Source of the DNA: Dastarcus helophoroides
Lineage: Eukaryota; Arthropoda; Insecta; Coleoptera; Bothrideridae
Assembly: GCA_028583605.1 (NCBI GenBank)
Contig: CM053326.1
Coordinates: forward strand, 8,626,587 to 8,690,586
Reading direction: 5' to 3'
DNA: 64,000 nucleotides
A program made the position numbers and the translations under genes. This document shows positions 1 through 57,671 of this stretch, piece by piece (within the stretch, counting starts at the first letter, position 1; each line of letters starts with the position of its first letter). The notes under the pieces are model-generated. The model had not been told where the DNA came from. It made no database searches and saw only the letters and a list, made by a program, of their open reading frames with translations.

Positions 1-838
1 TATTTAACATTTCTTCGGCCCAGTTTGGAAATATTTAAATTTTTTATGGTTTGTTGACAATTTTCTAAACAGTTTTTGAAATGCGACTACGTGATATTTA
101 AATTTATTGAAAACGTTACCTCATGACAGTTCACAAATTAAGAGGTTAGTTTATTTTACATAGAATAGAAATAATGAAAAATAGGAGACCAAAATTAGAC
201 ATGGAAAAAAATTGTTTTTTTGATAAATTAGGAAAATATAAAAAAACACATAAAAAGTTGTAGCACTGGACATCGATGTTTCGCTCTCATTTCAGCTCGT
301 CAGCAGTGCATAACATGGAAAGGGAACAATGAGGAAGAAATACTTAAGAATATTTTTTTTTAAATATAGAAAAGAAAAATAATGAAAGTTTAACATGAAT
401 AGACGTTTCATTTCAATTTACTGTGTTAAAAATTTAAATTTTTGAAGCACGATCCACAAGAAACAACTACTTCGAGGGCTAATACCCCTTCCGGCATTGA
501 ACTACACTTGTGGTCGAACTTACATGCTCTTGCTGACGAGCTTAAATGAGAGCGAGATATCGATGTCCAGTGCTGCAGCTTTTTTATGTATTTTTTTATA
601 TTTTCCTAATTTATAAAAAAAAAAACAATTTTTTCCGTATGTAATTTTGGTTTCCTATTTTTCATTATTCCTATTCTTTGTAAAATAAACTAACCTCTTA
701 ATTCGTGAACTGTCATGAGGTGACGTTTTCAATAAATTTAAATATCACGTAGTCGCATTTCAAAAACTGTTTAGAAAATTGTCAACAAACCATAAAAAAT
801 TTAAATATTTCCAAACTGGGCCGAAGAAATGTTAAATA
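1..838. mobile_element. Long palindromic (foldback/MITE-like) element, left end possibly cut by window edge
   Basis: The first 305 bases reappear as reverse complement at about 533-838: TTCTTCGGCCCAGTTTGG at the left, CCAAACTGGGCCGAAGAA at the right, and the shared block ACTGGACATCGAT near the inner ends. The centre (306-532) is unique AT-rich sequence with no coding frame. No transposase is present, so this is a non-autonomous palindrome. The left terminus may lie upstream, so no target duplication can be read. Confidence 0.8.
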
Positions 839-3663: not shown

Positions 3664-4060
3664 ACCAGTACACTATGAGGCGCCGTTCACAACATAATTA
3701 TTTTTCATGAATATTTAATAAATCAAACAATATATGTAAAATTTTAAATTATATATTGTTTCGTTCTTGAAATATACTTCATTTCTGTAAAAATGAATAT
3801 TTATATTCTCCTGATAGAAATTTTACATAAATCTATTTAAATATTTTATATGAAAGTTTTATGTGGTTTTAAAAATATTTATATAAACTGTGAAACATGA
3901 AACGACCGTGAGAGGCGATAGTAGCCGCACGAATCGGGCATGGAGTATGGTATTATTTATATATCAATTTTATTTTTCGTTGTCGCCACCTGAATCTTGA
4001 TTATATTTACATATTTATCAATAGCACTAAAATCTGACATAAAAAGTGACAGCATGCTGC

Positions 4061-4100
<40 letters not shown>

Positions 4101-4424
4101 ATAATAATAAATAAATAAATAATAAAATAAAAAAAGTTTCAAACCTTAATTTAAGTTCCAGCGCTTCTAGCGCCCGCTACGGTGGTTTGATATATCACAC
4201 TTTATATAAATATTTTTGAAATCACATAAAATCTTTATAAGAGATATTTAAGAATATTTATATAAAATTTTTAACAGAAGATTAAAATATCCATATTTAT
4301 TGAAATTAAATATACTGCAAGAAAGAAATAATATATAATTTCAAATTTAATATAAATTGTTTGATTTATTAAATATTCATAAAAAATTATTATGTCCTGA
4401 CCGGCACCTCATACTACACAGTGG
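3664..4424. mobile_element. Palindromic element with about 260-bp inverted arms
   Basis: Left arm 3664-3922 and right arm about 4162-4424 are reverse complements at moderate identity. They share ATGAATATTTAATAAATC and a terminal CCAGTACAC / CCACTGTGT. The centre (about 3945-4160) holds a TAA microsatellite. It shares a stretch (GTTGTCGCCACCTGAATCTTG and surroundings) with 27755-27977 elsewhere in the window. No transposase and no clear target duplication are visible. Confidence 0.7.
4061..4135. repeat. (TAA)n / (TAAA)n microsatellite
   Basis: About twelve uninterrupted TAA units are followed by imperfect AAT/AAAT units, inside the centre of the surrounding palindromic element. Confidence 0.95.
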
Positions 4425-10462: not shown

Positions 10463-13117
10463 GAGGAAAGTCACCAAATATGGAATACCATTTTGTTTTA
10501 GGAATATAAAAAAAAACTTCATAGAAATGAAAACAGTTTAATGTTATTACTAATCAGTCATACATTTATATGTAGTAATTAACATCCTTTAATCAAATAT
10601 ATTAGTTATTAAATTACAATCTAACACAAAAACCAAAATTACAAATAAGTAACCAAATATGGAATAGGTACCCATATATGGAATATAAGCATAAATCATC
10701 ATATCAATAACAAAAATAGACATAAATATCTATGAGATCAAATAATTAAAAATAACATATTGTGATAAATGAAAGAAGTTACTTAATTCACTTGCAAAAG
10801 TCACAGATCCAAGTATCAAACTCTGGACCAGCACAATCATAATGTGCCCAGAGCCCACACATTAAGCATTTAATCCAGCTTTCTCCACTTTTATCCATGG
10901 AAAAAAGTCTTGAACAGAACATACATTCTGCATCAGCAGAGTCAGGAGATACTTGGTCCATCAACTCATCATGTTCACTGCCTTCATCAAACTGGATATC
11001 GTCCTGTTCCTCAGAGTCTTCTTCTTCCCAATCATCCTTATTTTTCTTCGTTTGTTTCTTTCTCTTCGCAGTTTTCTTCTTATTCTTTGTCTTGACTAAT
11101 TTACTTTCTTTTTCTTGTCTCTTCATATTTTTATTTACTAAATCATTTTTGTAGGGTGAAGATGTTATGACTGCTGCTACAGCAGCTTTTCTTCCTCTGT
11201 TAGATACTTTTCTTCGTTTCTCTGGTGCTGGACTTATGGCATGCGGAGACACCAGACCCAAACTGCTGCGATTAATCCCGGAAGTCGAGGGCGCAGGTTC
11301 AGGTTGTACATTAGCAGTTGTTTCTGGTACAATTATTTCTATCAGAACTTGACCAGTTTCAGATCTTGATTCCAGTGGAGTGATATTGGTTGTACAACCG
11401 TCTCTTACAGCATTTTGTTGCGCAGCAATAAAGTCCACATCACTGAACACATTTTTATTTAAAGGCCATAATCCAGTGACTTTGAACCCGTTGGCTGCAA
11501 TTTCACCTGTTTGTACTTTCAAATAGGATTTGCCAAACAGCTCCACAATATCATATTGACTTAGAGGTCTGTTGTTGTTTTTAATCCACATGCGTATTTC
11601 CTCACTGTAGTATGTTTTTAATGGCCCCATGAAAGTCTTGTCTAACGGCTGCAATTTGTGAGTCGTCTGTGGAGGTAACGAAACTATGTCCACGTTATTT
11701 TCCCTAGCAATATCTATTATATCGATATTGTGAGTATGACTATAGTGTCCATCTAGTATCATTAAAACCCTTGATTCAGGAGTCGAGTTGGTGTGTTGAA
11801 TAAAGTGCCTGAACCAGTCTGTAAAGATGTTCATTTGAATCCACCCTGATGGATGTGCAACTCCGACTGATCCTGGAGGACAGCCTCTCCTTAGCTGAGC
11901 ACTCATATTTTTTCTGGGAAAAATAATGAACGGTGGCACAAAATGACCAGTAGCATTCATGCAAACAACTATTGTCATAAGAGATCCTCTTTCTGCTGAT
12001 GTCAGTGCAGCTATCTGGCGTTTACCTTTGTGACCGATGATTTGTGGTATCTTACTTTGTACTATTGTGAGGCCTGATTCATCCACGTTGTAAATTCGAT
12101 TTGGTAGATAATTATTTTTAGTGTAAAGCTCTTCAAGGAGGTTGAAAAAAGCATCCACTTTTTCTTTATCAAATCCAAATGCTCTGGCAAAAGATGTACC
12201 AGTTGGTCTTCTTATAGCAAGTTTATCTTTATGACGATTTAAAAATAACTTTAACCACTTTTTTCCAGCCATACCTGATTTACCGAAGGGATTCTGCAAC
12301 TTGTTTCGCTTTGCTAGCATATACGCCATACGGCGAAGATCAGTTCTTGTTAAACCATGAAACTTGCTCTCCATCATTAATATGTATTCTACTAGCTGAC
12401 GTTCAAGTTCGGAGCCCAATATAGTTTTTCGTCCTAATGTAGTAGCTGCTGCCACTTCTGGAGACTGTTCATCTTGTTGGCATAAACGAAATAAAGTTGT
12501 CCTAGGCACTTGAAAATGCTGTGCCGCTTTCAAATATCCCATTTTCTTTCCCCGGACGAATTTTATAGCTTCTGCCATTTTTTCTTCATCCCAGATTTTT
12601 CGTTTCTTGGTTGATTGTGAAGCCGACATTCTAAAAACAAACATAACATATAATTTTTTAAAGAAATAGTAGCAAGTACCTGTCATGTGAAATAAAAAGA
12701 CCTAATTATGGAATATTCCATAATTAGACACTGACGACTGTCCATATTTGGATTTTTATACTAGTTCAAACTCGTCTAAATATTTTTTCAAGTCACAATA
12801 TTTTAATGACTGAAGATCACAAAATGTTGAAATAAACATAATATCGATATACTAAATAGTATAACACTTATGTATACATACCTAATAACTGGTAATACTC
12901 ATTTATTACTTACCTTTAAAATTTTCTGCGTGACAACAAAACAAAACACGCCTGCCACACGTGTAGCGTTGGCGCAACTGACACGATGGTGTGAGTGCGG
13001 TAGTAAATAGACCGAATGAAACAAAAGATGGTCGTGTGTTGCGTTTCATACTTATATTTTTAGAGAAATTAAGGTATTCCATATTAGGATACTATTCCAT
13101 ATTTGGTGACTTTCCTC
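10463..13117 (-). mobile_element. Complete pogo-like (Tc1/mariner superfamily) transposon with TA target duplication
   Basis: The termini are perfect 25-bp inverted repeats beginning GAGGAAAGTCACCAAATATG (10463-10487 and 13093-13117), flanked by TA at 10461-10462 and 13118-13119. The uninterrupted MITE copy at 28580-28870 gives the empty site (GCAAGTAATTATT), confirming insertion at a single TA. The element is 2655 bp long and encodes an intact transposase on the minus strand. ATATGGAATA-like words are repeated near both ends. Confidence 0.95.
10788..12629 (-). CDS. Pogo-like DDE transposase with C-terminal PHD-like finger
   Basis: This is a 613-residue uninterrupted frame from ATG 12629 ([11 protein letters not shown]). 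The frame is open to an upstream ATG at 12686, but that stretch contains CAGGTACTTG and TTTGTTTTTAG, which look like a 5' intron, so I prefer the inner start. In order: a pipsqueak-type helix-turn-helix (about 15-52, [15 protein letters not shown]), a CENP-B-like second DNA-binding domain (about 70-140, ending [12 protein letters not shown]), and a DDE_1 catalytic core with Asp in NVDESG (183), [10 protein letters not shown] (293) and KLQPLDKTF (330). A very basic linker ([19 protein letters not shown]) and an acidic stretch follow. The last 45 residues form a Cys4-His-Cys3 pattern (CMFC, CLMC, HYDC, CDFC). All catalytic residues are present, so it could be active. Confidence 0.93.
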
Positions 13118-13256: not shown

Positions 13257-13652
13257 TATGTGGTAACGATTTCATTTAATAATTGAGTAGCGAGGAAAGA
13301 GCCACAGTTAACGGCAAAACCAAAGCAAGTCAGGTTGACACGGGCAAAATTTAAATTGTTTAGCTCTGTAAAAGGCTAGCCCTAAGTATTTTTTAGAAAC
13401 GAATCTAAATTTGGCATATTGGTTGATGATTACCCTAACAAGTCAAACAATGAAACACATCAACATAAAGCTGTTTATAAGAATCTCAAATTTTCTAAAG
13501 GTGTGATGATTTTGAATTGTATGGAAGCTATAGCATTAAACAATTTTGAACTTCTGTCATCAATAAGTTTGAATTTATCGTACTTAGGGTGTTAAAATTT
13601 TCATTTTTTAAGATCCTTTTTATACATCTCTCAAACGAAAGCGAATATTATA
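13257..13652. other. Gap without recognised genes
   Basis: Nothing recognised. Confidence 0.5.
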
Positions 13653-14698
13653 CAGGGTGTTTCCGTTTTAATTGACTTAAATGAAACAGGTGATGGAAAA
13701 AGTAATTTTAAGGAAAAATTGTCTATGAACATGTATCCGAAAACTCTTAATAAAAGAGATACAAGGCGTGAAAATTTAAATAAAAAAGGTTTTTATTGAT
13801 TCATTTTCAAGTTTTCAGAGTTATTTAAACTAAATTTTGTGTTTTGGTGTTTAGATGAAGGATCATAAAATAAGAGAAAATTAAGTTTCCATCTCAACCA
13901 GCGGCGAAGTTGCGGGTAATCTGTAATATTGTTTTGAAAAAAAAAGTAGTACGCCACTAAACAAAATGAAATAAAATACAATTTTTGGATAAAGCGTTTA
14001 ATTCTGAGGAAGAGTTTTTTCTTGACTTTTTTTTGGCATTTACTGCCTTATGTTTTACTTATTAACTGTTCGAATACAATGTATGCTGGTCTTTAAATAA
14101 TCAGTGACTAACACAAAGAGGGGTAAGTTTAAGATGCGACGACACTGGATAAAATGAAATTTATTAACAGTTTTGGATAAAGTTCAGTCTTAACGGTCTT
14201 TCATATTTGTCACTATTGTGACAGAATTTAAATTTTTGGGACTTTCCTTATTGAAAGTACGAGTGAGAGTGATGTTTTTTCCAGAACCAACGAAATAACG
14301 CAATCAACGGCAAATACGGAAAAATGTCAAAAAAAAAACTTTCATTCAAAATTAAATACTTTACCCAAAACAAGTATTTTATTCCATTTTTCCAGTGGGG
14401 TACCCCATTTTTCCTACAGTAATATCACAGATTACTCGTAACTCCAGCACTGGTTGAAATAGAAACTTAGTTTTATTTTATCATCCTTCATTCATACACC
14501 ATATGTGCAAAATTTGGTTTAAATATCTTAGAAAACTTGAAAGTGAAAAATTAAAAACTTTTTTTTTAATTCAAATTTCAACACCTTGCATCTTTTTTAT
14601 TAAAAGTTTCCGGATACATATTCATAGGAAACTTTTTGCTTAAAATTGTTTTTTCTATCACCTGTTTCATTTAAGGCACTTAAAACGGGAACACCTTG
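13653..14698. mobile_element. Foldback MITE with about 400-bp inverted arms, TA target
   Basis: The left end CAGGGTGTTTCCGTTTTAA mirrors the right end, read inverted as CAAGGTGTTCCCGTTTTAA. Homology continues inward through TTAAATGAAACAGGTGAT and GAAGGATNATAAAATAA to about 14060 on the left and 14290 on the right. TA dinucleotides flank it at 13651-13652 and 14699-14700. There is no coding capacity. The CAGGGTGT end is common to several TA-inserting elements in this window. Confidence 0.8.
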
Positions 14699-14700
14699 TA

Positions 14701-15159
14701 TATACCATATAAATATATGGTAGTATTAGGTATCTCCTAGAGCGGTAGTATTTACCTAGTAATACAGTTTACACACATCATCAGTAGCGTAGATCTGACC
14801 TTTTTTTATTAGTACTTCTATCTCACTGATCCTATTTACTAATTCTATAATTTTTGTAACGTTCTCTGCAAAAAAAATTGGGCAATTATGGCGACAAACT
14901 TGAAAACTCAAAACTATGATATAACAGAGTTTTTTTGTCAATTTTCAAATTGTAATGTCAAAAATAAAAATTTTACAATTTTTAAATTAAAATTATTATT
15001 TCTTGTTTTTATATCTTTTATATTTGCATACAATCGAGTCTTTAATCTCGTCTATTTTGGGTTGCTGCATATTGAAAAAACCTATTACACTATCTAAATT
15101 TTATATTTTCCTAGCAAATATCAGGATATTTCAAAAAATATGTCTTCAATGCACTGATT
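14701..15159. other. AT-rich gap
   Basis: Nothing recognised beyond chance frames. Confidence 0.5.
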
Positions 15160-21797: not shown

Positions 21798-22007
21798 CCT
21801 ATATATTTCTGAATTTACTATATCATACTGAGTGTTTACAAAAGGCTGTATTGGACTCGTGTCGCTGAAGTTATGATCCTCTGTCAGGAAAGCGATCTAT
21901 CAGAACCACCATAAACCCTACATTATTTTAGTATGTTTTTTTAATGGTATCCAAATATGCAGAGATATATAGGATGTTCTATTTTTAAAAAAGTAAGACC
22001 CTATATA

Positions 22008-22439
22008 CAGTGTGTCCCACCGGAAATCGCTGCGATCGATATCTGACAAAGTAATCTCTGAAATATTTGAAAATTTAACTTAGCAAAGTCAATAAGGCAA
22101 ATACAACTTGGATTTTAAATGAGAACTCCTATATATTTTGGGATTTTTGGATTCTATTTGATATTTTAAGGCCTCATTAAATAACATTGTTGATTTTTTT
22201 AAAGAAATTTGACAGATGCAAGGTCCGACGAAATTATTTGAATCTTTTTCCAAAAAGCCGATAATAATTTCATATTTGATATGTGAGTAGAACACATATA
22301 AAACTATCTTGTACAACTTTCATAAATTCAAAAGCATTATATCGAGGACTGAATTCACGACTGAACATTTTAATAAATTCAAATCTTTTTGATAATTTCT
22401 TTGTCAGATATCGATCGCGCTTCTCGGTTGGACACACTG
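22008..22439. mobile_element. MITE with CAGTGTGTCC inverted ends and TA target duplication
   Basis: The left arm CAGTGTGTCCCACCGGAAAT...GCGATCGATATCTGACAAAG mirrors the right arm, which ends GGACACACTG. The shared inner block is ATCGATATCTGACAAAG. TA flanks it at 22006-22007 and 22440-22441. At 432 bp with no transposase it is non-autonomous, Tc1/mariner-type by target. Confidence 0.85.
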
Positions 22440-22696
22440 TAGAGGCAATAGCTTTTAAAGCTAAATACTTTTTTTATAGAAAAGAAGGAATTATTAGCAA
22501 AAATTAAAACATGTTTATAAAATTAGTAATTATTTTGCATTTTTGCATTTCTATGCCCAGTTAATATCTATCAAAATTTAAAAAATATGTCAAGCAGTAT
22601 AAAGGTATTTAGAAAAAACTATTTTTTTTCTTAATTTTTATCACCCTGTATCTAATTGACATTTCCAACCCTTACTTCGTAAAATTCTTTAATATT

Positions 22697-22961
22697 CATA
22701 ACTATTAAACTTTATTAACGATAAAAACGCAACAAAATTTAAAAATTCCACAAGGTTTTGATAAATATTTGCTAACACCGGACCAGGTGTCGAATTACTG
22801 CATCATCGGCGGTCATAACAATGGCTAAACAAATTTCTGGTATGACCGCCGATGATGCAGTAATGCGAAACCTGGTCCGGTGTTAGCAAATATTTATCAA
22901 AACCTTGTGGAATTTTTAAATTTTGTTGCGTTTTTATCGTTAATTAAGTTTAATAGTTATG
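22697..22961. repeat. Near-perfect 120-bp inverted repeat (hairpin) with 25-bp spacer
   Basis: The left arm 22697-22816 and right arm 22842-22961 are reverse complements with about three mismatches. They run from CATAACTATTAAAC to CATCATCGGCGGTCAT. The spacer is 22817-22841. Transcribed, it would fold into a very stable RNA hairpin. No coding frame and no target duplication were seen. The low divergence between arms means recent formation or ongoing arm conversion. Confidence 0.95.
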
Positions 22962-24205
22962 AACCCTCTATCTAGAAAAATAAAGCGGTTGTGGATCTAT
23001 TTTCTTATAATTTTTTTTTCTTAAAATCACCCAAAGGTTATAATCCTTCAGTTCAGCATCAACAATAAGTACTATCGAATATCGCATTTACTATTAGGGA
23101 AACAAAGTTACGTATACTTCCAATGGAAGTTTTATTAAAAGTAATATTTTCATAGGTATAATTTAGGATAGGCCTTATTCTGTTGCGCGGATGAGTGCCT
23201 ACTCCATTCTCATAAGCACTTAGATAAGAATTTAATTTCGCCAGTATCTTAAAAACAATTTACAGTTAACTCGCATGGGACTTGATAAAACATTTTCAAA
23301 TATTATAAAATTATTAATTATTTTACACAAAAGTGAATAACTGGTCATTGGAAATTAGTTCACATTACCTTTGTCTTTGATTGTATGAAATCTGTCATCA
23401 AAATGGAGAAGAAAAAATTAAATTTTGTGAAACCTGAGTGCAAACCTTTGCAATATTGTTTTCATCTATTTATACAATTAGGTGCTGAAATATATTTCAT
23501 TCTAAGAAATTCCAACATGCGTTTATCATGTTACACATTTATCATGATTCTCATTTATTATAGTAATAATTTATGTTGCTTGCAATTCCTGAATTTTAAT
23601 AAGCCGCTGAGTAAAGTTTCAAGGGTGTAAAATTCCGGTTTAACATTCCTCGGTTTCTTAATAAACGAGGTTAAAAAGTCTTCAACTTTCGAAATAATTT
23701 AACGATAATTTCGTTGTAATAAAGGCACGAAATGAAACGAAAATGGGGAAGTTTTGCTTGTTTGTTGAGTAAGCCCGGATAGTATAGCCCTGTCATCCCT
23801 TAAGCACACACCGACGCCCTTTTCTGTGTAATGATAATTTCTGTTTCCACGCGCTGGCTTATTTCGTCACTAAATATAATCTAACTTCCCGACGTCTACA
23901 GCACGATATGCACTCTAAAACCTACTCTTTTCGCGTTCCTTCAAATAAGAACTTAATATCATTTTATTATGAAGATGGATTATCTAATAAAAATTAATTA
24001 AGCATTTGATGATAATAGTAAAAAACAGAACTACAAAAAGTATGCATTCAAATAAGTTTCCGTGATATTGTTCCGAATAATAAATGTTTAATATTTTTAA
24101 GTGTCAATATGTTTCTTTTCTTAACAATGTTTTGATAATTTGTTCCTGATTCAGACAGCAAATTTTTAAATCAACAATATTTATGTAATTTTATAAGCAT
24201 GTATA
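22962..24205. other. Gap without recognised genes
   Basis: AT-rich sequence; a moderately GC-richer patch at 23760-23940 has no recognisable coding. Nothing else supported. Confidence 0.45.
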
Positions 24206-24266
24206 ACAAACGACCAATTAAATGTTCTGTAATTAAACAGTTAAACGTGTTTAAAATTGAAAATAT

Positions 24267-24333
24267 GTGCAATCACAACCATAGACAAATTTTGGCCTTC
24301 CTTGGCCTCATCAGCATGGTACGGTAGTTGTAC
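24267..24333 (-). pseudogene. Mutated hammerhead ribozyme copy
   Basis: On the minus strand CTGATGAG (24314-24307) and the GGCC...GGCC stem II are kept. The invariant GAAAC has become AAAAT and stem I has mismatches. The cleavage triplet GTC remains. Loss of the GAAA box should abolish self-cleavage. Confidence 0.8.
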
Positions 24334-24440
24334 ACACTTCCAACTTGAAGCCGTTAGTCAGACGTATAAGTATCCAAGAGAGTAAACCTCCATTGGGTGA
24401 CTTGTAACTGACTTTTAACTGTTTATTACGTAAACATGTG

Positions 24441-24509
24441 TGTACAACCACCGTACCATGCTGATGAGGCCAAGGAAGGCCGAAACTAGTCTATGGTTGC
24501 GGTTGTACA
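24441..24509 (+). ncRNA. Type I hammerhead self-cleaving ribozyme
   Basis: All invariant parts are present in order. Stem I 5' strand is TGTACAACC (24441-24449) plus ACCAT (24455-24459), followed by a G-U closing pair (24460 with 24492). The core CTGATGAG is at 24461-24468. Stem II is GGCC / GGCC with loop AAGGAA. GAAAC is at 24482-24486, with a very short stem III. The cleavage triplet GTC is at 24489-24491. Stem I 3' strand is ATGGT (24493-24497) plus GGTTGTACA (24501-24509). Stem I carries an internal loop (ACCGT against TGC) where natural hammerheads make loop-loop contacts. Predicted cleavage is after C24491. A stem III this short is typical of the minimal hammerheads of animal retroelements, which often act as dimers. 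Confidence 0.9.
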
Positions 24510-24569
24510 TATTTTCAATTTTAAGCACGTTTAACTGTTTAACTACAGAACATTTAATTTGTCGTTTGT

Positions 24570-27020
24570 CAAAACTAGATGAAAGTAAAGTCACGCCGAG
24601 GACGTTTGTACCTATGGATATTGCGATGCAACACGTGATACAAGCTTTGCTTCATCTACGTGAACTTTGCAATTGCAGTCTGGTTTTCATTAGATTCTAA
24701 TGAGATTAGATTTCAATTGCATCGTAATAAACTTGTATAAATTCGTATATACAAGGCTTATTATATCTCAGCAAGCATGTATAAGTAAGTACGAGGCTTA
24801 TCCAGAAAGTAAATTCCGTTGGCGTATAAAATAAAATCAATTACTAACTTTGAAAATATGTTTATTGCCATGAAATGTGCATGTCTTACAACAGTTTTGA
24901 GCATAATGCCCGAAGTGGATGAAACAACCCACATTATCTCTTTCAGTTAGTTTATGTGTTTTTTCCTGGTTTTCTTAGAGATTTTTAAGTGTCCTAAAAA
25001 GAGGTTAATTAAGTAGTAGTTTTTGAAATGTTTTGTTTAAGTATTTATTAATTGAATGTGACTACGGTTCACCTTCGAGTAGTAATTTACACCGGATTTT
25101 TCGGATTAGATTTACTGTTTAAAAATATTTAGTACCGTTACACTTTTGAATTTATTGGGTTATGTGCCGTGCTTTGAAACTTTACTTTTTTGTATAATTT
25201 TCCTGGTATAGTTGTGTATTGCATGCTTAAGTTTTGGCTGAACTTTTCCAGGTTACACTTTTTGTTTTGCATTTTTAATACCACCAAAATTTTAGTATTT
25301 TTAACAGATATCGCCTAAATTTTTATGGCTTTATTTGGTTTTATTTACGTTCTTTCCCTTAAATGTTCTTTTATTTTTAAGTTTAGTTCAGCCAGATAAA
25401 TTGGTGAAGCGTGGCCCGGCAGGATCTATGCAAGTTGAAGTTTGAAGCAACTATTTTATGATCGTTTCCCTACAAGGCATTCGGTAGTTTCCCAATCCAA
25501 TGCTAGACAAACATCGGCACTAGGAAACTACCAGGTGCCCTTCTTACCATATTTATTTTTTCTATTAAAGAGCTACGAATAGTTTTTGCTTATTCTAAAG
25601 TTAGGCAAGTAAAGGAAGTAGGTTGCCACTGGGGCCACAATTCCCAGCATGTAGCGTGTAAGACTTTTCGCTTTTCATTCATCCGTGCCGGTCGGCTAAA
25701 GCAGCAGAGCTTTTAAAATTTCTAGCTACATAACTCTTTACTGGGATAAATTGGGGTAACTTGATGTTGGCAGATGTGGTTTTAACATATAAAATATTCA
25801 CCGCATATGATCGATTCTCAATATACCAATCAATAGACCTTGTAAGAACTATTTATGCTTTAACTGACCCAGATAACTTCAAACTCACTATTTTAATAAC
25901 GATTTAATAACAATATTGAACTAACAGCAAGGGTTATTCAAAGTTGACATACAAATCGCTTTTTCAAAGTGAATAACTTGTTTAACAATCGTTGTAATAA
26001 GATGTTGAACTTGAAGTGTAAAGGTAATATACTGAAAAATAAACCAAATATTGAATTTCATTAATTCTTTTTATGGATTCTGTTGGTCAGTAGTTTACCA
26101 CTGATAGCGCTATATGAAAGTACTGTGTTGATGCAATATAGACGAACTAGAACATTACGATCAGTCTACTCTAAATAATTTATCAATCCTAAAGCTGGAA
26201 TACATGGTAAAATATAAATAAATAAAAATAACTCCAGATAAATTTAAGCCGATTAAACTTGAACTAACACAATGTATTATTAAACAACGATTTTAATGTT
26301 TGAGCGGAGAGGCTATTCATAAAGTTCTATTGAACCTGATCTCGCTGTAAAACCGAACTATAAACTACCTCCTAACAAATGAATATAACTCTGTGCATGT
26401 TGAAAATTGAAATTTGAGCACGCATAAAAGCGAACGAACGTTCCAACTTTCCTGCTATGCATATTTTGATAACACAAAGCAAGCAAACCCTGGTGTATCT
26501 AAGAAACGTTACACAGAGAGTCAAAGACGAGATGAAAGGGGTTCATGAGGGAGTATGCGGCAATAACAGTCCGTGTATACACGCCCGTTGTCGGTCGCAA
26601 ACGATGCCAACAGAATTTAATTGATCGTCCCTATTTGGAAAGCACAACACGTACGATGCGTCTCCGAAGTCCCTCGCCTGCAAAACAGGGGACAAACGTC
26701 AAGATTTTCAAGAAATAAAGGGGAGACTTTATGACCGCTAATACCCCGGTGTATTGAATTAGTTTCCAAGCACGAAAATTGCTTGACCCGGGCAAACAAT
26801 TTGGCAGAAATATAATAACAGGGACCCTTTTCAAAATGCCTTTGTTTTTCATAAGTGGGGACTCGAAAGAAAAATCATTCCCCTAAACCGGATGCAAAGG
26901 GTTTCGCTGTTAGCAAATACATAGCTGTTAGGTTTAGGTCAAGTTAACAGTTTGTTGTGTAAATTTATGTCGCAATTTTAAATTCCCTTTCGCCATTTCA
27001 ATAATATATTCTATGTATTA
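24570..27020. other. Gap without recognised genes
   Basis: At 24798 the word CGAGGCTTATCCAGAAAGTA resembles a mariner-type terminus, but no partner end was found. A 10-bp hairpin GGTAGTTTCC / GGAAACTACC lies at 25483-25532 with a 30-base loop. Frames in the more balanced stretch 26400-26900 show no known domain. Confidence 0.4.
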
Positions 27021-34517: not shown

Positions 34518-35069
34518 TCAAATAAGTGAATGGGATATTTTACCACTAGCGCCAATAATGAAGGACATTATAATAACTCTTTCTTGATCCCACATTTCTT
34601 TTATTTCTCTTGACAGTGGTAGGTACTTATTTATCTTGTCTGTATATTTTCTTTGGATGTTAGAAGATAGCGGTACCGAAAAGTCCACTAGATATGTTCT
34701 TCTTGTTTGTTTTACTGTGAGTACTAAGTCTGGTGTATTGTTATGTATTGTGACATCTGTGATTATATCTCTATTACAATATAGTTTAAATTCATCTTCG
34801 TCTATTACTGTATCAGGATTGTATTTGTAATACATTACCTTTTGATGTTCTTGTTTGAATTTTCTTAGAATTGCTTGGTGTACTGTTTTTCCTACATTGT
34901 TGTGTCTCTGCGTGCAGTCCCTTGGCGCCACTGTTCGACATCCACTTATGATATGGTCGATGGTTTCATTTTGACTTCCACACATTCTGCAGTTGGTGTT
35001 TACTACTGGTTGTTTCATTATTTGCTGTTTTTGCTGTGGCGATGACTTGATCTTGAATGACAGTGGCAA
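34518..35069 (-). pseudogene. C-terminal zinc knuckle and restriction-like endonuclease of an R2/R4-type LINE
   Basis: A 183-codon open stretch on the minus strand holds CRMCGSQNETIDHIISGC, a CCHC knuckle (C-x2-C-x8-H-x4-C). Then come QRHNNVGK, and TPDLVLTVKQTRRTYLVDFS with a PD...D core and nearby Lys, as in the restriction-like endonuclease domain of R2, R4 and NeSL-type LINEs. This domain nicks target DNA to prime reverse transcription. It ends with INKYLPLSREIKEMW and FIIGASG. This part is open, but the rest of the polyprotein is shifted and interrupted by stops. Confidence 0.82.
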
Positions 35070-37497
35070 ATCCCTCTGTTTCTGGGAACAGGTATCCTCT
35101 GGTTAATCATTCTTGGGATGCTTTTTCGTCTATGTGCTCTGCTTTAAGACTCGTTGGGTATCTACCGTGTAGTTCCTTGCTGAGCCATCTTTCGATTTTG
35201 TTGTTGAGTTCAGCCGGTGGGTTTAGTTCTGTGGATAGCTTAAGCGGGGTGATATTTCTATCGAGCGAGACTATGCATCTGTATATATTGTTTTGTATTG
35301 TTTTTTCATGAAAGTATGTTCCTAAGTTTGCAATCTGTTTGTCATGAAGTATAGTAATGCCAATTACTTCACGGCCTCCTTATGTGCGTGGTAGATGAAA
35401 TCTTTCAATTGAGCTTTTGAGGTGATGGAACCGGTATTTTGTACTTAATGTACGTATGCTTCTATTTAGGTCTTCGGACTTCTAACTCTGTTTTTGTCGA
35501 TGTAGGTATTCCAAAACTGTATGTCAGTATAAGTATTACGAATGTGTTGATTGCATTCATCATATTTTGGGAGTATAGTTTTGTCTTCATTAGTAGTTTT
35601 AACCTTATTTTAAACTTGATGGTCAGTAATTTTTTGTACCGTTTGCAATCAATTTCTCTGGCTTTTTCGTACCCTAAGTATTTATATAACTCTTATTCTT
35701 TCATTCCTTGTTCTGTATCACAACTCTCATATCTTATCCATTTTACTTTTTTCTATGTATTTATTCGACACTTGTCTAATCCAAACTGCATTTTTGTGTC
35801 ATCGCTGGAGGTAGCAAGAATATTTATTACTTCTTGTAAGTCTTTTTTTGTTTCAGCAAATCATTTAATATCGTCCATATAAAGTAAGTGGCTTGTGTTT
35901 GGATCTTATAGAAGTCCTACGCCTTTCTTTTTTCCGTTAATGAAATTGGAAAGCGGATTTAGTGCGATGCAGAACCACAAAGCGCTAAGCGCGCCTCCTT
36001 GAAAGATTCCTGACCGAATGTTTACGCTTCCTATGTTTCTTTGCGTTGTCCCGATAGTAAGAGTAGTTTTCCATTTTTTCATTGCTTTTTCCATAGTAGC
36101 TATGATATGTGGATCAATTTTATAAATACGTAATATTTCTATCAGCCATGAGTGTGGAACGCTATCAAATGCTTTTTTATAATCAATGTAGGCTGAGTGG
36201 AAACGTTTTTTGATTCTTTTTATTCTTTCTGTCACAACTGCGTCTATTATGAGTTAATCCTTAGAGCCTTTTGTAGCTTTTCTGCATCCTTTTTGTTCCC
36301 ATGTAAGTATGTCCTTATTTTCTAAGCGGTGATGGATTATTTTTTCATAATGGAGTTAAATACTTTATATATTGTGGGAAGACAAGTAATCGGTCAATAT
36401 TTACTGGAGTCTCTACTTGCTAGTATAGTTTTGGAGAGTAAATATGTGATGCCTTCAGTCATGAACTCAGGTATATCTTCATTATTTGTAAGTATCTTTG
36501 TAAGGGGCGCAGAAATTTTTTGGTGCGTGCTGTTGAATTTCTTCCACCAATACTTGTGTATTTTGTCTTGTCCGGGTGCCTTCCAATTTTGTGTTTTTTA
36601 ATACCATTTTCTACTTCTTCTATAGTGATTTTATTATTGTTCATTTCAGTTTTGTTGTGAGTATGTCTCTTCCCCCTTTTAATCCATGGGGCTCTTTTTT
36701 CATGTTGTTTCTCTTCTGACCAGATAGTCTCTCAGTATCCTTTTGCCCTTTCTAATTCTGGGTTTTCTTTCTGCTCGTATTGTTGTTGTGTAAGCTACCT
36801 ATAAAATTGTTTCTGGTTTGTGCTGAAATTGTAATTATTTTGCTTTCGTTGATGATTATTCTTGTACATTTTTAATCGTTTTACAGTCGCTGCAAGAGAT
36901 AGTTTTAGATGGTCCAGTATCTCGGCTGAATTTATACTTTTTGTGTTTGTATATTTTTCTATAATTTTCTTTGATTTTCTGTGGGTTTTTCTACTTGCTG
37001 TTTGCTTTTGTGCTTGTGTTACTTGACCTATTTCTCTACGTAGTTCTTTTATTTTTCGATCGAGTCTTTCTTCCCTTGGTGGTTTCCGGTTCTTGCGCTT
37101 TGTTTTTCTGGTCTGTAAGATATCTACGTTTTGTTTATGCATTTTAATTGCCATTACTGCTCTAATATAAACTAGAGTGTGGATATCTACTAGATTGATT
37201 TGAAATTTTTGGCTAAGCAACCTGTTTATTATATTAATTATATCGTGTGTTTATTCGTTTTAAGTTTTGGAATTTTTGGTCTCATATTAGTCTTATGTCT
37301 GCGTATTCACAAAATGTTTCTTCATAGCAGTTACACGTGTCCTCTTCCAGTCCTGTTTCTCTTTCTTGATGGTCTTGTTGTTGTTGTTCCCTTTGTTCAT
37401 TATCTGTATTTTCATTTTCTTCGTTTTCTTCAGGAATATTGTTTTCTGTAATCTCCAATCCTAATTCTATTGCTACTTGATGTCTGACTTCGTCCAT
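35070..37497 (-). pseudogene. R2/R4-type LINE reverse transcriptase and N-terminus, frameshifted
   Basis: In 5' to 3' order on the minus strand: an acidic Gln/Glu-rich start (37497-37282), a basic coiled stretch (37220-36795, KIKELRREIGQVTQAQKQT), ITIEEVENGIKKHK (about 36640), PEFMTEGITYLLSK and PITCLPTIYKV (about 36470-36380), AYIDYKKAFDSVPHSWL (RT block with first Asp, about 36190), GIFQGGALSALWFC (about 36010) and LYMDDIK (about 35880, catalytic YMDD). The thumb region follows (YKYLGY). Stops and shifts break it repeatedly. Together with 34518-35069 it forms one element of about 3 kb. Confidence 0.8.
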
Positions 37498-40201: not shown

Positions 40202-41542
40202 AACAGTACAAGCCCAGAATCTGCGTCGAATCAACAAAAAAATAGTAGTAAAGCCACCTTGTTTATGCCATTTCCACATGTTGTAGCACTGCATTGAGTG
40301 TAAGAACAGTACAGGTCCTGGATTTGTACTGTTCTTATTCTCAATATATGGCAGCTTGGTACGATTATGATCAAGCTCAGCCGTTTTAGTGGAATTTCAT
40401 GCTGAAAAAAAAATTAATTAGAAGATGTGATCCTACATATTGTAACGCAATGTAAATAGTTAGAATAATTAAGTAAATAAAAAAAAGTTTCTAGAAGTGA
40501 TAAGGGGAAAGCGGCCACGATAACAAAACAAATGGCAGATAAGCGTTCCATAAATTTTGGCAAACGATAAGCCTTATCCGCCGAAAATTCTAGAAGCCGG
40601 GGGCCAAAACTATAAAAGGCGCTCAGCTTTCCCTCAAGTCATTCAGTTAGAATCAGTGTAATTAGTGAGTTAGTAGAAGTCAATAATAAGTGAGTTAATT
40701 GTCAATTGTGGTGATCCAAGTTGAGTTCAGTAATAAAGTGGGTATAATCCATCACGTGTAATCAGTTCGAACCGATAAAGCTCGTAACAATATCTTTCAA
40801 ATGGATATGAGACAGTGACTAAAATTGCCAGAAAAAAAAAACATTTTCTATAATTATCACTTCATATAGACCCATCTACTTGATTTTAAAAGCTGTGACC
40901 TCCGAACTAAAAAAAACCTGTATAATAGTAGCAAATAATATAAATAAAAGTTTTACGATTTCGAAATGCATACAGCTTGTGTACGGTGCCTTATTTCCAA
41001 GCTGTGTTAAATGCTTAGATTTTAATGATTAATTTTTATACTTTAAAATTGCTAAAAAATCAAAATCCATATACTTCTACCATTAAAGCCTGTTTTGAAC
41101 CAATGCCAATTAATAAGAAGAAATTGAATGATATAAAACATATTATAATGAAATACATAGAGAGAGAATAGGAAGATATAAGATAATATCCTGGAGAACC
41201 ACGAGTTTTGGAGAATGATGATAATTCTGGTACCTAAATCTAATTACTTTTGTTCAATAAAATATGCTTTACCGTCGTATTTTTATTTTTTTTATGCAAT
41301 TTTTGTGCAAAATTCTAATAATTACCAATATTGAGGTAAATAACAGTACAAGTCCAGAATTTTTTTTGTGGATATTAAAAAAGCGCATGAACTAATAAAT
41401 TTAAATTTTTCTTTAAAGGGTGCCTCAAGGAATATACTAAAACTTGTTTGTACATACCAAACCTATAAAAAGCATAACAAACGAAATAAACATATTTTTT
41501 TTTATTTTTCCAACACTCAAACATTTGGACTTGTACCGTTCT
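40202..41542. mobile_element. Possible DNA element with AACAGTACAAGYCCAGAAT ends, split by a solo LTR
   Basis: AACAGTACAAGCCCAGAATC at 40202 and the inverted TTTGGACTTGTACCGTTCT at 41524-41542 could be the outer ends. Additional copies lie at 41342 (AACAGTACAAGTCCAGAAT) and in a 13-bp hairpin TAAGAACAGTACA / TGTACTGTTCTTA (40301-40337). These could equally be two small MITEs (40202-40337 and 41342-41542). The Gypsy solo LTR lies between them. No transposase was seen. Confidence 0.5.
40441..40789 (+). mobile_element. Solo LTR of the Gypsy-type family
   Basis: It runs TGTAACGCAATG to CGTAACA with ATAT on both sides (40437-40440 and 40790-40793). It contains a TATA box TATAAAAG (40611) and AATAAA (40732), the expected U3 promoter and polyadenylation signals. 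It is the cleanest LTR copy in the window. Confidence 0.94.
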
Positions 41543-42856
41543 TTATCTCACCAATTCGATTAGTTTCATATTTTTGACATAAAATTGAAAACAAAATAAA
41601 AATGTCATATCTTTGCCAATTGTGTAGAACGTCTATAATAATATATGAGTACAATATTTATGCCTTAAACTTGAAATAAGGCGAAATTTAGAAAGAAAAA
41701 AAAAACTGTTTACATTCGCAATAAGTTACCTTATTATTTATTTCAGCCATAATTCCCTTATCTTTTTAAATTTTTGCAGAATTCCTAAATTTCAGTTAAA
41801 AATCGTCTGTAAACATAATGATAAATGGCCCCCCTCCTAATTCATCCCTTTATGTATTTTTTATTTTACCGAGAATCCAGTGGCAAATATAAAATGCAGC
41901 ATCATCAAAAAAGACCTCCGGTTTTAATTTAGCCGAGGCCGGAAGTTAATTAGGACCAGAGATAAACGACGTTAGAAGGGGGAACGCTCACCTTGGTTTA
42001 AAGCAGTTGGTATCAAAATATTCTCATTGTTGGAGTTCGTTTTCTACAGTTCTTAACATTTTTGTTAATACTGAATAGCTATCGGTGTAACATTTAAACT
42101 GGCGCTCCTTTTTCGTTAAAATATTACTTTTGTTTTCTGTAAAAATGTGGTCCGCATGAATAAAATGGAGGGTCTATTTCTTTTGAAATGATACCTTCGA
42201 TACCACTGAAAAAATATCTACTATGGAAACCTTAACTTCAAACTAATATTCTAGTTTAAAATTTAACATAATAAAAATAAGGATAAAAATTTGTTACAAG
42301 TGCGAACAAGAATTATCCCCAATGATGGCTGCGAAGATGTGATGTCCAGATTGTTTTTTTTTAGTAGTTAGAGGCTCATACGCTATCCAAAGCATATTTT
42401 TTGTGACGACTTTAAAGTAAGAACAACAAAAAAATGTTTGACGGGACTTGCCTTATATGTAAACAGCACGGTGAAAATCACTAATGGAACCCCCTTCTCT
42501 TGTATTAAAGTTTCGTATGCCGTGTACATTAATGTAAAACCAGTACTGTTAGAAAACAGATATCTAGACACAATCACTTCATCAAAAGGCAAACCAAACT
42601 AATTAAAATATTTATGTTTTATGGCTCTCTATTTTGGTGTTCACGAAATTTCCTCTCACTTATCACGTATGTAATAACATCTGCTTTCTGTATATCTGTA
42701 CATCAAAATCATCGAAGGAACTACCAATAACCAATTCTTTGTATTCTGAGAGAAAAATGTCAATACAATTATGTTGATTTTTCAACCCTTTTCAAATAAT
42801 GAAGTAGTGCAAAAAATTTCCTTTGCATCCAAAGTTTTAACAAAGTTTTATATATA
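41543..42856. other. Gap without recognised genes
   Basis: Nothing recognised beyond chance frames. Confidence 0.45.
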
Positions 42857-51326: not shown

Positions 51327-52003
51327 GAAATTTGAAAAGAAACTTGCTTTTTCTAAATTTATTTTACACTGCACAGCCTACTTTAAAAATGTAATTTTTC
51401 AAATGCTTTCAAGAAAAATTATTAATTTTGTGACAGATAAGTAAACTACTTTTATCACAATATAATGTTTCGATTAAAAATTGCTAGGATTCTTAAGCAG
51501 CAAAAATATTTATTTCAATTTGGTCAATGTATGTAGTACAGCTGAAGTAATTTCTCAATTTAAAGCGAAAACATAATTATCATTAAAGCCGGACAAGTCA
51601 CACATGAACATATTGATTAAACTCACTATGAATAGACATGAGGATAGGAAAGTAATCTAACTTTTGTCTGGAAGGTAATGCAGCACAATTGAGAAAACAC
51701 GAGCGACACAGTAATTGTATGAAACTGCCAGCATGCTCCAACTTGCATCTAGTGAAATTCACTACAGTTTCAACGGGCATAAAGAACATAATGGAAGAGC
51801 GAAGTAGAGGACTAAGCTCCCCCGTCTAAACAACGCTATATTCTGATTTAATTATATCTGATTGTGAGAGGAGTGAAGTGATTCATTCACAACAATACCT
51901 ATAACCCAAAGCACTATCAATGAAAGCACTTTCTGGCATACCAACTTATTGAATAACAGCAAGCTTGTTTTTTGTTAATTATCAGGAAATATAAATATTT
52001 AAA
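51327..52003. other. Gap without recognised genes
   Basis: Nothing recognised. A 63-codon minus-strand frame at 51598-51789 has no known domain. Confidence 0.45.
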
Positions 52004-52005
52004 TA

Positions 52006-54642
52006 TACAGGGTAGGCCACGCTGAACGTTGCGGCCTCTAGGAGGTATGGGGTAACATATTTTAAAAAATAAATATAGCAGTTAAATATTGGACGCTAAG
52101 GTGTACATGCTAAAAATATTTTCAAATATACAGGGTGTTTCAAAAAATTGCTACATATCAAAGTTGTGATTTTTTAAAGGAGACACTATGTTTTTTCCTC
52201 ATTTTTAAATTCAGTGCAAAAAAGTACGTCAGTTTTATTCAGGTTTCCCTGTACCAAAACCTTACCCTTTTTAAATTAATCAGGTTTTTTTAAAAAAGAC
52301 GAGTTTTGCAAAATATTAATCTTACTCCCGAAAGTGAAAAATTTTAATAGTGGCGTCTTCAAATTTTTATTTGGCATACCTCTTGCTAGAAAATGCAGTT
52401 GGGGCAAATACCTAACTTTATAATAGGACGTTTCAAATTTACCGAAACATTTACTCGAAGTTGGGATTTCAATTTCTTTGTAAATTTAAATGGAACACCC
52501 AGTATATTTTTATTTTAAATACTAGAAAATTTAATTCTCTTTCAGATGGTATGCACTTTTTTTACTTGAGTTCACTGGTTTGAGAGATAAAACTCATTTT
52601 TGACGAATTATGCTGCTTTTAATCCGATATCCAAGATAAAATAACATTTGATCATAGTTGGCAGACATCAGTGAGCTGACGTAACTCTTATAATAAGTTA
52701 AATTGCACTTTCTTAATTCAAGAGAGTTTATGTTGACTTCTTCATTAAGTTAGTAGTTGAATTTGCTAAAATGGGAGGATATTCTGTTGACGAAAAGGTC
52801 AACATGATTTTGACAATAGGTGAATGTTACGAAAACTGTTTATTAGCATCCAGAGTACACGCTCAAAAATTTTCGGATAAAAGGCATCCAGATAAAAATG
52901 TCTTTAAAAGACTGTTCGCAAGATTTCGTGAATCAGGTACCATTGGTTATGAAACCCGTAAAATGTCAAAACCTGTTACGGGAAACGAAGAAAATGAGTT
53001 TCTTATAATGCAGTTAATTACTGAAAACCCTAATGTAAGTACCAGAATTCTTAAAAAAGAAACTACGATAAGCAGAACAAGTATACGAAGAATACTTAAG
53101 AAACATCAATATCATCCATATCACGATGAAATGCACCAACATATGTACGGAAGAGATTTTGAAAGACGTTTGGAACTCTGTGTATGGTTTCTTGAGAAAG
53201 TTGGAGAAGAACCTGACTTTTATGGTTCTATTTTATTCACAGATGAATGCACGTTCCATAATACCGGCCTAGTTAATCGTCACAATTTTCATTTTTATAG
53301 CACTGAAAATCCACATTTATTTCGTAGTCAGGATTATCAAAATCGTTGGAGCGTTAATGTATTTGGTGGAGTTATTGGCAATAACGTCGTTCGGCCATAC
53401 TTTTTTGATGGTTCCTTAAGTGGGCAAGTTTTTTTAAGATTTCTAAAAACACATTTCTGGATTATACTAGAAAATGTACCCTTAAATACAAGGCCAAAAA
53501 TGTGGGTTCAGTTACACGGAGCTCCTGCCCATTTTGACACTTCCGTAAAGGAATATTTAAATAGGAAATTTCAAAATAAATGGATTGGTAGAGGCGGTCC
53601 CCATAGCTGGCCATCCAGATCGCCGGACCTAACCCCAATGGAATTTTTTCTATGGGGGTATGTAAAAAACATTGTATACAATGTTTCCCCTACCACCCCA
53701 GAGGACATGAAAATTCGAATACGAAATGCTTTTGAAACAATTGACGAAAGTATTTTAACAAATGTTAAGAACTCTTTTAAGAAAAGAATAAGACTTTGTG
53801 TAGAACAAAATGGTTCCCTCATTGAACATTTGTTGAAGTGGAACATTGTTTTTTATTTCTGTTGGATATTAGTTTCGCAATTTCATTAAATACTGCACTA
53901 AGTATGTAGTTGTCTTTTTTAAATAAAACTATTTGTAAATTAAGCTAGGTTAAAACAAATGAAATTACTTTACATAAGTCACTATAGTTTAGCAAAGCAT
54001 GCCATCCTTGATCAAAATTTGTTTCTTTTTGGATAATGATAAGAAATAGCACAATTCCTGAAAACATTTATATCTCTTAAACTACTAAATTTAAGCATAG
54101 AAAACGTACATACCAACTTAAAGACAATTAAATATGTCATTATTTAAAATTAAAAGATACTGGGTGTTCTATTTAAATTTACAAAGAAAACGACGTCTGA
54201 AGTTTAAGTAAATGTTTCGGTGAATTTGGAACATCCTGTATAAAGTTTGAAACTTGTGCAAACTGCATTTTATAGTAAATGAAAATTTATAGATGACACT
54301 GTCAAAATTATTTACTTCAAGGGATAAAATATTTCTTTTTGAAAACCTTGTATTTTAAAAAGAAGTGGATTTTCTCAAAAAAGATTAGGTTTAGGTATAG
54401 GAAAACCATATAAAAATTGACTTTATTTTTAGCGCTAAATGTAAAAAAAAAAAAAAATATGGTGTCCCTTTTAAAAAATTACAACTCTTATATGTAACTA
54501 TTTCTTAGAAGATCCTGTATATTTGAAAATATTTTTGACATGTAGATCCCAGCAACTCATATTTAAACATAATATTTATTTTTAAAAATATGTTATCTTA
54601 TAGCTCCTAGAGGCCGTAGCGTAGAGGTTGGCCCATCCTGTA
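52006..54642 (+). mobile_element. Mariner-like transposon with about 650-bp terminal inverted repeats, TA target
   Basis: The ends TACAGGGTAGGCC and GGCCCATCCTGTA are flanked by TA (52004-52005 and 54643-54644). Homology between the ends continues inward for about 650 bases (52006-52668 against 53998-54642), including GCGGCCTCTAGGAG, the internal CAGGGTGTTTC and ACACCCAGTAT words and GTAAATTTAAATRGAACACC. The transposase gene fills the space between the arms. Arms this long are unusual for mariner elements, whose repeats are commonly near 30 bp. Confidence 0.9.
52771..53889 (+). CDS. Mariner-like transposase (DD41D/rosa-type spacing) with altered catalytic triad
   Basis: This is a 372-residue uninterrupted frame. 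Residues 1-60 form the helix-turn-helix called DUF4817 in many insects (YSVDEKVNMILTIGEC, RHPDKNVFKRLFARF), and 75-120 the second helix-turn-helix. The catalytic core has Asp158 in LFTDECTF. The second catalytic position, normally Asp in a QxDGAPAH motif, is His249 (VQLHGAPAHF). The third, in SPDLTPMEFFLWG, is Glu291 where relatives usually have Asp (PLDFFLWG). The spacing 249 to 291 (41 residues between) fits the DD41D group. The frame is intact, so the His may be a single late mutation that kills an otherwise complete enzyme, or the protein may persist as a DNA-binding factor. Confidence 0.9.
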   Translation: MGGYSVDEKVNMILTIGECYENCLLASRVHAQKFSDKRHPDKNVFKRLFARFRESGTIGYETRKMSKPVTGNEENEFLIMQLITENPNVSTRILKKETTISRTSIRRILKKHQYHPYHDEMHQHMYGRDFERRLELCVWFLEKVGEEPDFYGSILFTDECTFHNTGLVNRHNFHFYSTENPHLFRSQDYQNRWSVNVFGGVIGNNVVRPYFFDGSLSGQVFLRFLKTHFWIILENVPLNTRPKMWVQLHGAPAHFDTSVKEYLNRKFQNKWIGRGGPHSWPSRSPDLTPMEFFLWGYVKNIVYNVSPTTPEDMKIRIRNAFETIDESILTNVKNSFKKRIRLCVEQNGSLIEHLLKWNIVFYFCWILVSQFH

Positions 54643-54644
54643 TA

Positions 54645-55319
54645 TAGGTATATAAAGAAATTCTGATAAATTCAAGAACACCGATATACATATTAACGTA
54701 TTGCAGGATTCAAATGCATTCTCTTGATTGATCGTCGATTATAATTTTATCCATTAATATCGGGTGTAATAGGAGCATGATGCACCCCCTAATTTTTTCT
54801 TTATTTATAAAGATAATATTTATAAACTTGCTACACTTGATGTGCTTATAAAATGTCAAATTTTAACATAAGAATGGCATTCCTACTGCTATAACTTTCT
54901 TTAAAACTGGTACCAACTTTTGATTTTTAAAGGATCAAAAATATTTTTAATCCCATTTTATTTTTCCACCTAGAAGGCTATGACTCATTCTAATTAGTTC
55001 AAATGGACCACATTAATGCCACAAAAATCAAAACACGTAAAAAAGAAGTATTTCATTGTTTTATGACGTGATAAAGTTAACAAAAATGGTTTTTATATAA
55101 GAAATTCATTTTCTTAAATGGCACCATTTTGGTACCGTGGTACTACTAAAAGGTATAGTTAATGGCGAATCTAACAATATTTTCATTTTTGTTGTGAAAT
55201 CAGTAGAACTGAAATTACAGTTAAAAGAAATTAAAAGTTTCGGTTTCAATTTACTTGAAGGCTCACTCACTAGGAACACAAGATAGCTGTGATTTTGATG
55301 GAACGGACTGGTCCTTGGT
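54645..55319. other. Gap without recognised genes
   Basis: Nothing recognised. Confidence 0.5.
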
Positions 55320-55476
55320 TATCTTTAAAAATTGAAACACAGAACTTGTCCCCTGAAACCAAGAAAAATTAAAAAACACAACAAAGGTTGCTCTAAAAAA
55401 GAGAGCAACCTTTGTTGTGTTTTTTAATTTTTCTTGGTTTCAGGGGACAAGTTCTGTGGTTCAATTTTTGAAGATA
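55320..55476. repeat. 75-bp near-perfect hairpin with 7-base loop
   Basis: Left arm 55320-55394 and right arm 55402-55476 differ at about two positions. Their centre is GGTTGCTCT-AAAAAAG-AGAGCAACC. A diverged relative lies at 33910-34072. No coding capacity. Transcripts across it would form long double-stranded RNA. Confidence 0.95.
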
Positions 55477-57309: not shown

Positions 57310-57671
57310 TGTTGTGGGCTTATCGGCTCGAAATGATTATTACCACTTGTTGAATAATACCCATTTTATTTTTAAACTAAATTCGGAACACTACAAGTGA
57401 ATAATGAACTCACTTATTGACTTCAAACTATTAACTCACTAATTAAGTTCACTGACTGACTGACTCTAATTCTTTCGAGGAAAAGGCGACCGCCTTATAT
57501 AGTTTTCGCTTCCGGGTTCTAGAAAAATACAGCAGATAAGGCTTATCGTTTGCCGAAACTTCTGGAACGCTTATCTGCCGTTTGCTTCATTATCGCGACC
57601 GCTTTCCCTTATCAGATCTTTCTAGAAAATGTTCTTGCTTACTAAATTCTACAATTTACCATTTCGATATA
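57310..57671 (-). mobile_element. 3' LTR of internally deleted Gypsy-type element
   Basis: It shares the LTR family sequence (GATAAGCCTTATC-type core). It is preceded on the element strand by a purine tract AAGGGGGAGGCAG (57684-57672), the polypurine primer for plus-strand synthesis. ATAT lies outside at 57306-57309. Confidence 0.9.

Follow-up and report, generated by a model that had tools for sequence, protein, structure and literature searches.

An intact hammerhead motif in a head-to-head, probably Penelope-derived insertion of the beetle Dastarcus helophoroides

The subject of this article is a stretch of 64,000 nucleotides (the window) from the beetle Dastarcus helophoroides, positions 8,626,587 to 8,690,586 of contig CM053326.1 in assembly GCA_028583605.1, and a small self-cleaving RNA motif that lies within it. 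By sequence and pairing, positions 24441-24509 are a minimal type I hammerhead ribozyme. An inverted repeat carries the motif in its right arm and is itself part of an insertion we call element A. We think it probable, if some way from secure, that the motif is the ribozyme of the pseudo-long terminal repeat (pLTR) of a Penelope-like element (PLE) and that element A is a single insertion in which two such pLTRs stand head to head, with a 12-bp target-site duplication and a one-sided tail. As it stands, element A is most probably of Penelope descent and either dead or non-autonomous. The inverted, hammerhead-bearing arms are plainly present; calling them pLTRs assumes the element to which they belong, and so the name is putative. 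The hammerhead was first picked out by a model that saw only the letters of the window and a list of its open reading frames. That original prediction held that the locus marks an element family a protein search would miss, and the locus does have the look of such a Penelope- or retrozyme-like retroelement. It overlooked the inverted copy of the unit, the flanking duplication, the one-sided tail and a second element of the same design at 1-838.

The hammerhead motif and its fold

Every part of the ribozyme named in the original prediction could be located. CTGATGA (24461-24467) is followed by a stem II of GGCC-AAGGAA-GGCC, then by GAAAC, a TA loop and the GTC triplet. Stem I has an outer half of 9 bp (TGTACAACC/GGTTGTACA) and an inner half of 5 bp plus a G-U closure. 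The motif has what defines a type I hammerhead: the CUGANGA and GAAA core, a UH cleavage site, paired stems I and II, and a stem I that is open.

That hammerhead-like words simply fell together by chance is an explanation to which we give almost no credence. Its appeal is that the motif scores below the Rfam gathering threshold and that a loose pattern is common; a sequence-only pattern discriminates poorly, giving 27 matches in the window where 11.8 are expected. A structural descriptor, comprising the exact core together with stems I, II and III (its thresholds set after the motif had been seen), picks out two intact motifs here, where 600 random windows of equal dinucleotide make-up average 0.015. 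Each of the two lies within a long inverted repeat. With one core mismatch allowed, the count rises to three, against a mean of 0.13 and a maximum of 2 in 60 random windows. The third motif is the broken copy in the left arm of element A, the only addition that this relaxed descriptor brings. The original prediction had called a chance origin very unlikely, and these counts support it.

Its description of the motif as well formed needs qualifying. The core, the order of the parts and stems I and II all stand, and the motif has a fold z-score of -3.9. Helix III is minimal, just two pairs around a 2-nt TA loop, and by nearest-neighbor rules forms no stable hairpin in a monomer; PLE hammerheads are reported to have just such a minimal helix III (PMC7761336 and PMC7229834, parts covered). 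Being self-complementary, its sequence ACTAGT could join two copies in a duplex of -4.8 kcal/mol. The minimum-energy fold of the motif (-27.1) keeps most of stems I and II and, in a departure from the hammerhead fold, pairs the CUGA core with UAGU; the hammerhead fold itself scores -23.4 with stems I and II alone counted. A full transcript of element A would fold arm to arm into a hairpin of -229 kcal/mol. Because the full transcript prefers this hairpin, only RNAs beginning in the spacer or the right arm would leave the ribozyme free. The predicted fold of 24338-24772 keeps most of the stem I pairs and all those of stem II, with CUGA again paired to UAGU.

No Rfam model is matched at its gathering threshold anywhere in the window, and the covariance-model check that the original prediction had proposed therefore came back without a match at that level. 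The only Rfam match at 24441-24509 is to RF02275 (Hammerhead_HH9), with 25.3 bits against a gathering score of 52 (E 0.058 over the window). The type I model, RF00163, was not listed there, although one lower-scoring overlapping match of the same clan was suppressed. HH9 is also the best-matching covariance model for the second intact hammerhead of the window, at 30.6 bits again well below gathering.

Element A and its resemblance to Penelope-like elements

The arms of element A (24206-24337 and 24438-24569) form an inverted repeat that is 92% complementary, with 122 of 132 aligned columns identical. The close match between them gives out three bases beyond stem I. A 12-nt word, AAGCATGTATAA, ends to within one base at the outer edge of the left arm, and an exact copy of it lies beyond the far end of the element. 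When 20,000 random window positions were examined, only 0.31% had a match of at least 12 bases ending no more than two bases from the point and recurring 240-1000 nt downstream. Taken as a target-site duplication, the direct repeat delimits an insertion of 566 bp (24207-24772), implying on sequence grounds that element A consists of left arm, spacer, right arm and one-sided tail (Table 1). PLEs are recognized by target-site duplications that vary in length and by a tail on one side; element A has such a tail and, putatively, a duplication of 12 nt. Self-BLAST with lax scoring aligns element A and the element at 1-838 straight through their centers. We considered whether arm similarity runs on through the center in this way and set the idea aside (p 0.061, borderline, for element A; p 0.51 for the second element). 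To the right of the duplication, 24788-24830 putatively resembles the start of a mariner-type inverted repeat.

Table 1 Features of element A and of the second head-to-head element
Feature	Position	Strand	Remarks
Putative target-site duplication, left copy, 12 bp	24195-24206	+	AAGCATGTATAA; exact copy at 24773-24784
Left arm: the hammerhead-bearing unit in inverted orientation, running outward	24207-24337	-	Base 24206 belongs to the arm or to the duplication
Mirror copy of the hammerhead, with a disrupted core (GAAAC to AAAAT) and without the helix III palindrome	24284-24332	-	Weak Rfam Hammerhead_3 match, 17.8 bits
Central spacer, 100 nt, folds on itself	24338-24437		Arm-to-arm similarity borderline, p 0.061
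Right arm with intact hammerhead	24438-24569	+	Inverted-repeat alignment
Intact minimal type I hammerhead ribozyme	24441-24509	+	Predicted cleavage after C24491; sequence, pairing, descriptor
Open frame, 80 codons, candidate start of a Penelope-type open reading frame	24458-24700	+	ATG 24458 within the hammerhead; second in-frame ATG 24464; stop 24698-24700
One-sided 3' extension (tail), about 203 nt, right arm only	24570-24772	+	Runs up to the duplication
Putative target-site duplication, right copy	24773-24784	+	AAGCATGTATAA
Second head-to-head element	1-838		Left end cut by the window edge; self-BLAST palindrome
Second element, intact hammerhead (CTGACGA core from 303)	247-318	-	Helix III palindrome ACATCGATGT; Rfam HH9, 30.6 bits, E 1.1e-3 over the window; descriptor
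Second element, mirror copy of the hammerhead with a disrupted core (GAAA to GAGA) and mismatches in stem I	514-590	+	Core at 533

Two known systems give this architecture its meaning for us. In Adineta vaga, the sections of PMC3846280 covered here describe Penelope elements in whose typical copies a pLTR in inverted orientation meets direct ones head to head; several copies have 8-10 bp duplications, and one inverted pLTR may bear an optional 31-bp tail. The pLTR takes in the first 12 codons of the open reading frame (ORF), and a few solo pLTR pairs hold unrelated sequence. Element A is like Pen2a and its relatives in general plan, as far as those sections go: arms head to head, a putative duplication (12 bp here), a tail on one side, an arm running into the start of a candidate ORF, and a pair of arms around unrelated DNA. 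Unlike Pen2a, it is without reverse transcriptase or endonuclease, and hammerheads go unmentioned in the same sections of the Adineta paper.

The second system is PAc, the Poseidon PLE of Anolis, whose ORF starts at stem II of its hammerhead, the cut falling 26 bp after the start codon. The PAc enzyme starts reverse transcription 111-118 nt into the ORF, and in vitro it cleaves and extends both target strands (PMC11167929). In element A, the hammerhead likewise overlaps the start of a frame, and the left arm's outer end corresponds to a point 111 nt in frame from ATG 24458. That is 77 nt beyond the cut; by our arithmetic from PMC11167929, the Anolis start lies about 82-92 nt past it. PAc copies differ from element A in being tandem or partial tandem, and only one of the two ends of element A fits the distance.

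If element A is Penelope-derived, its origin might have run as follows. Transcription beginning within the pLTR or upstream of it would yield an RNA with the hammerhead at the start of the ORF, and the ribozyme would cut after C24491, perhaps as a dimer formed through the self-complementary ACTAGT of helix III. A PLE protein, supplied in trans, would then begin making cDNA at sites downstream of the hammerhead, which the outer ends of the arms would represent. Extension of both cut ends of the target would yield the palindromic insertion.

A good deal can be held against a Penelope origin. The open frame is unremarkable in length, 70 of the 2143 ATGs in the window (3.3%) opening frames that run as far as its 80 codons. 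It is without a homologue, and Pfam gave one sub-threshold, chance-like match; the protein database (insects included, proteins of similar length only) held no relative, and none of 48 pattern matches in viral contigs was confirmed. The figure of 111 nt hinges on the choice of ATG, being 105 when counted from ATG 24464 (the Anolis range is 111-118), and the right end falls at +315 nt in frame, nowhere near 111, because the tail, at about 203 nt, far exceeds the 31 bp published for Adineta vaga (PMC3846280, parts covered). In the 109 of 149 frames of at least 64 aa that were scanned there was no GIY-YIG domain; RVT_1 was matched only once, by a fragment (35909-36253) lying 11 kb from element A, so that a PLE-type reverse transcriptase, with or without its GIY-YIG nuclease, did not turn up in these frames. 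The literature adds its own cautions. For head-to-head copies, the Adineta authors prefer, in the sections covered, self-priming on an antisense template over two-sided priming (PMC3846280). In Anolis, hammerhead mutants left insertion in vitro unaffected, the ribozyme needed protein in order to cut, and RNA-seq gave no reads terminating at the cleavage site (PMC11167929); on these results, cleavage may not belong to insertion at all.

The missing domains have a ready interpretation. Without a recognizable reverse transcriptase or nuclease, element A would be a 5'-truncated copy or a non-autonomous one made in trans. For a non-autonomous element, the absence of domains lowers the case for its being a PLE, not the case for its being derived from one.

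The original prediction had named two homes for such a hammerhead, PLEs and circular-RNA retrozymes, and it is the first that the inverted arms, the duplication and the tail resemble. It had also proposed a search for the 130-bp unit in tandem. There is none in the window, the two copies in element A being inverted, and neither element A nor 1-838 shows a tandem array, leaving the circular-RNA retrozyme without a basis here. A related account deserves a hearing, although we consider it unlikely: that element A is a metazoan retrozyme, a small non-coding hammerhead element that spreads via circular RNA and was inserted head to head by the machinery of another element. Retrozymes are where most classical type I hammerheads of animals have been reported, insects included, and retrozyme target-site duplications, when present, exceed 4 bp (PMC7229834, parts covered). 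Element A shares with the metazoan non-LTR (long terminal repeat) retrozymes of that paper, so far as its covered parts describe them, a type I hammerhead in a small, non-coding, AT-rich unit, and the second element has no open frame of more than 46 codons in the stretches examined. Retrozymes are recognized, however, by tandem repeats of 150-450 bp with canonical hammerheads, and neither locus has a tandem copy. The arms are inverted, circular RNA finds no support here, helix III is minimal in element A and its hairpin is not stable in the second element either, and the word "inverted" is absent from the main text of PMC7229834 as covered.

The second element and the origin of the palindromes

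The second element offers the same design in a different sequence; self-BLAST found no similarity between it and element A. Its intact hammerhead reads CTGACGA...GCGAAACATCGATGTC, and the fold is no stabler than those of shuffled sequences (z -0.53). The helix III hairpin is not stable by nearest-neighbor rules. Strong arm similarity ends within about 10 bases 5' of the core, leaving a center of about 200 nt without mirror similarity (p 0.51). The outer columns of the arms differ at 2 of 160 positions and the inner ones, near the hammerheads, at 20 of 156 (about 13%), a contrast (p 3e-5) that could possibly reflect arm-to-arm conversion or a composite origin.

Nearly identical outer arms are also what one would expect of conserved terminal inverted repeats (TIRs), and the window is rich in palindromic elements resembling miniature inverted-repeat transposable elements (MITEs). 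Both points favor a foldback DNA transposon or MITE whose long TIRs happen to hold a hammerhead. We regard this as quite improbable. TIRs would be terminal on both sides, whereas the direct repeat of element A brackets arm plus tail; the right arm is not terminal, since the repeat lies beyond the 203-nt tail. Moreover, none of the 7 other palindromes examined holds a hammerhead core.

In both elements, one intact hammerhead survives beside a decayed twin, as might be expected of a domesticated ribozyme at work in a host transcript. That idea seems to us highly improbable. Two intact copies of four need no selection, no host gene was recognized in the frames scanned, and the arm hairpin of element A would tie up any full-length transcript.

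To return to a Penelope origin, the two elements, dissimilar as they are, share one detail: in each, the arms cease to match strongly at roughly the 5' edge of the hammerhead. This suggests a bolder idea, which we put forward tentatively and consider doubtful. Head-to-head hammerhead elements may be fossils of two-sided target priming, in which both strands of the target are cut by a PLE protein and each is extended from an internal start site of reverse transcription downstream of the hammerhead. The outer ends of the palindrome would then record those start sites, and the inner ends the point near the 5' edge of the hammerhead at which the template RNA stopped. The idea of inner ends bounded by the ribozyme draws on two loci and one matching distance. 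Its interest lies in the fact that both the route of inverted PLE insertion and the role of the hammerhead are described as unresolved in the parts covered of PMC11167929, PMC7761336 and PMC3846280; small palindromic copies such as these two may record both ends of the insertion reaction. Were the outer ends to fall at a fixed distance and the inner ends at the hammerhead's 5' edge, the cleavage and extension of both strands by PAc in vitro would be linked to insertions in nature. If not, we are looking at an ordinary decayed retroelement.

Relatives were sought more widely. Both hammerhead patterns and one outer-arm segment gave no loci in viral contigs, and the two hammerhead patterns none in prokaryotic genome contigs; these negatives say little, the collections being viral and prokaryotic. 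In the literature searched, the scope of which left out the main papers on PLE hammerheads, we met no description of head-to-head hammerhead pairs as such, and we make no claim about what is in print.

Other elements in the window

The neighborhood is crowded with mobile DNA. On the reverse strand, 10788-12701 is an uninterrupted frame of 637 aa for a pogo/Tigger-type transposase, with a Psq helix-turn-helix, a DDE_1 domain and a sub-threshold PHD-like C terminus. The protein is 94% identical to one from a JGI source and 64% identical to one from the moth Loxostege; among the matches listed, at least 120, an organism is named in 17 rows, 16 of them insects and 1 a scorpion. As a pointer to an insect host this is no more than suggestive, since transposons can pass from one species to another. 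The element has possibly been active recently. At 51979-54669, a Tc3-like transposase frame (52717-53889) lies within long inverted repeats that are 72% identical.

Palindromic MITE-like elements without a hammerhead core lie at 3674-4413, 13649-14702, 22006-22441, 22695-22963, 41221-41661 and 55320-55476. The last gave sub-threshold Rfam matches to microRNA precursors, probably because it is a near-perfect hairpin.

Retroelement debris is also present. The RVT_1 fragment mentioned above belongs to 34521-36253 (reverse strand), together with a frame at 34521-35102 that has a sub-threshold zf-RVT match; this is probably a dead long interspersed nuclear element. Integrase fragments (rve, Integrase_p58_C) of an LTR-type retroelement occupy 57649-58397, also on the reverse strand, and are flanked by copies of a repeat of about 350 bp that is found near 30.9, 40.6 and 49.4 kb as well.
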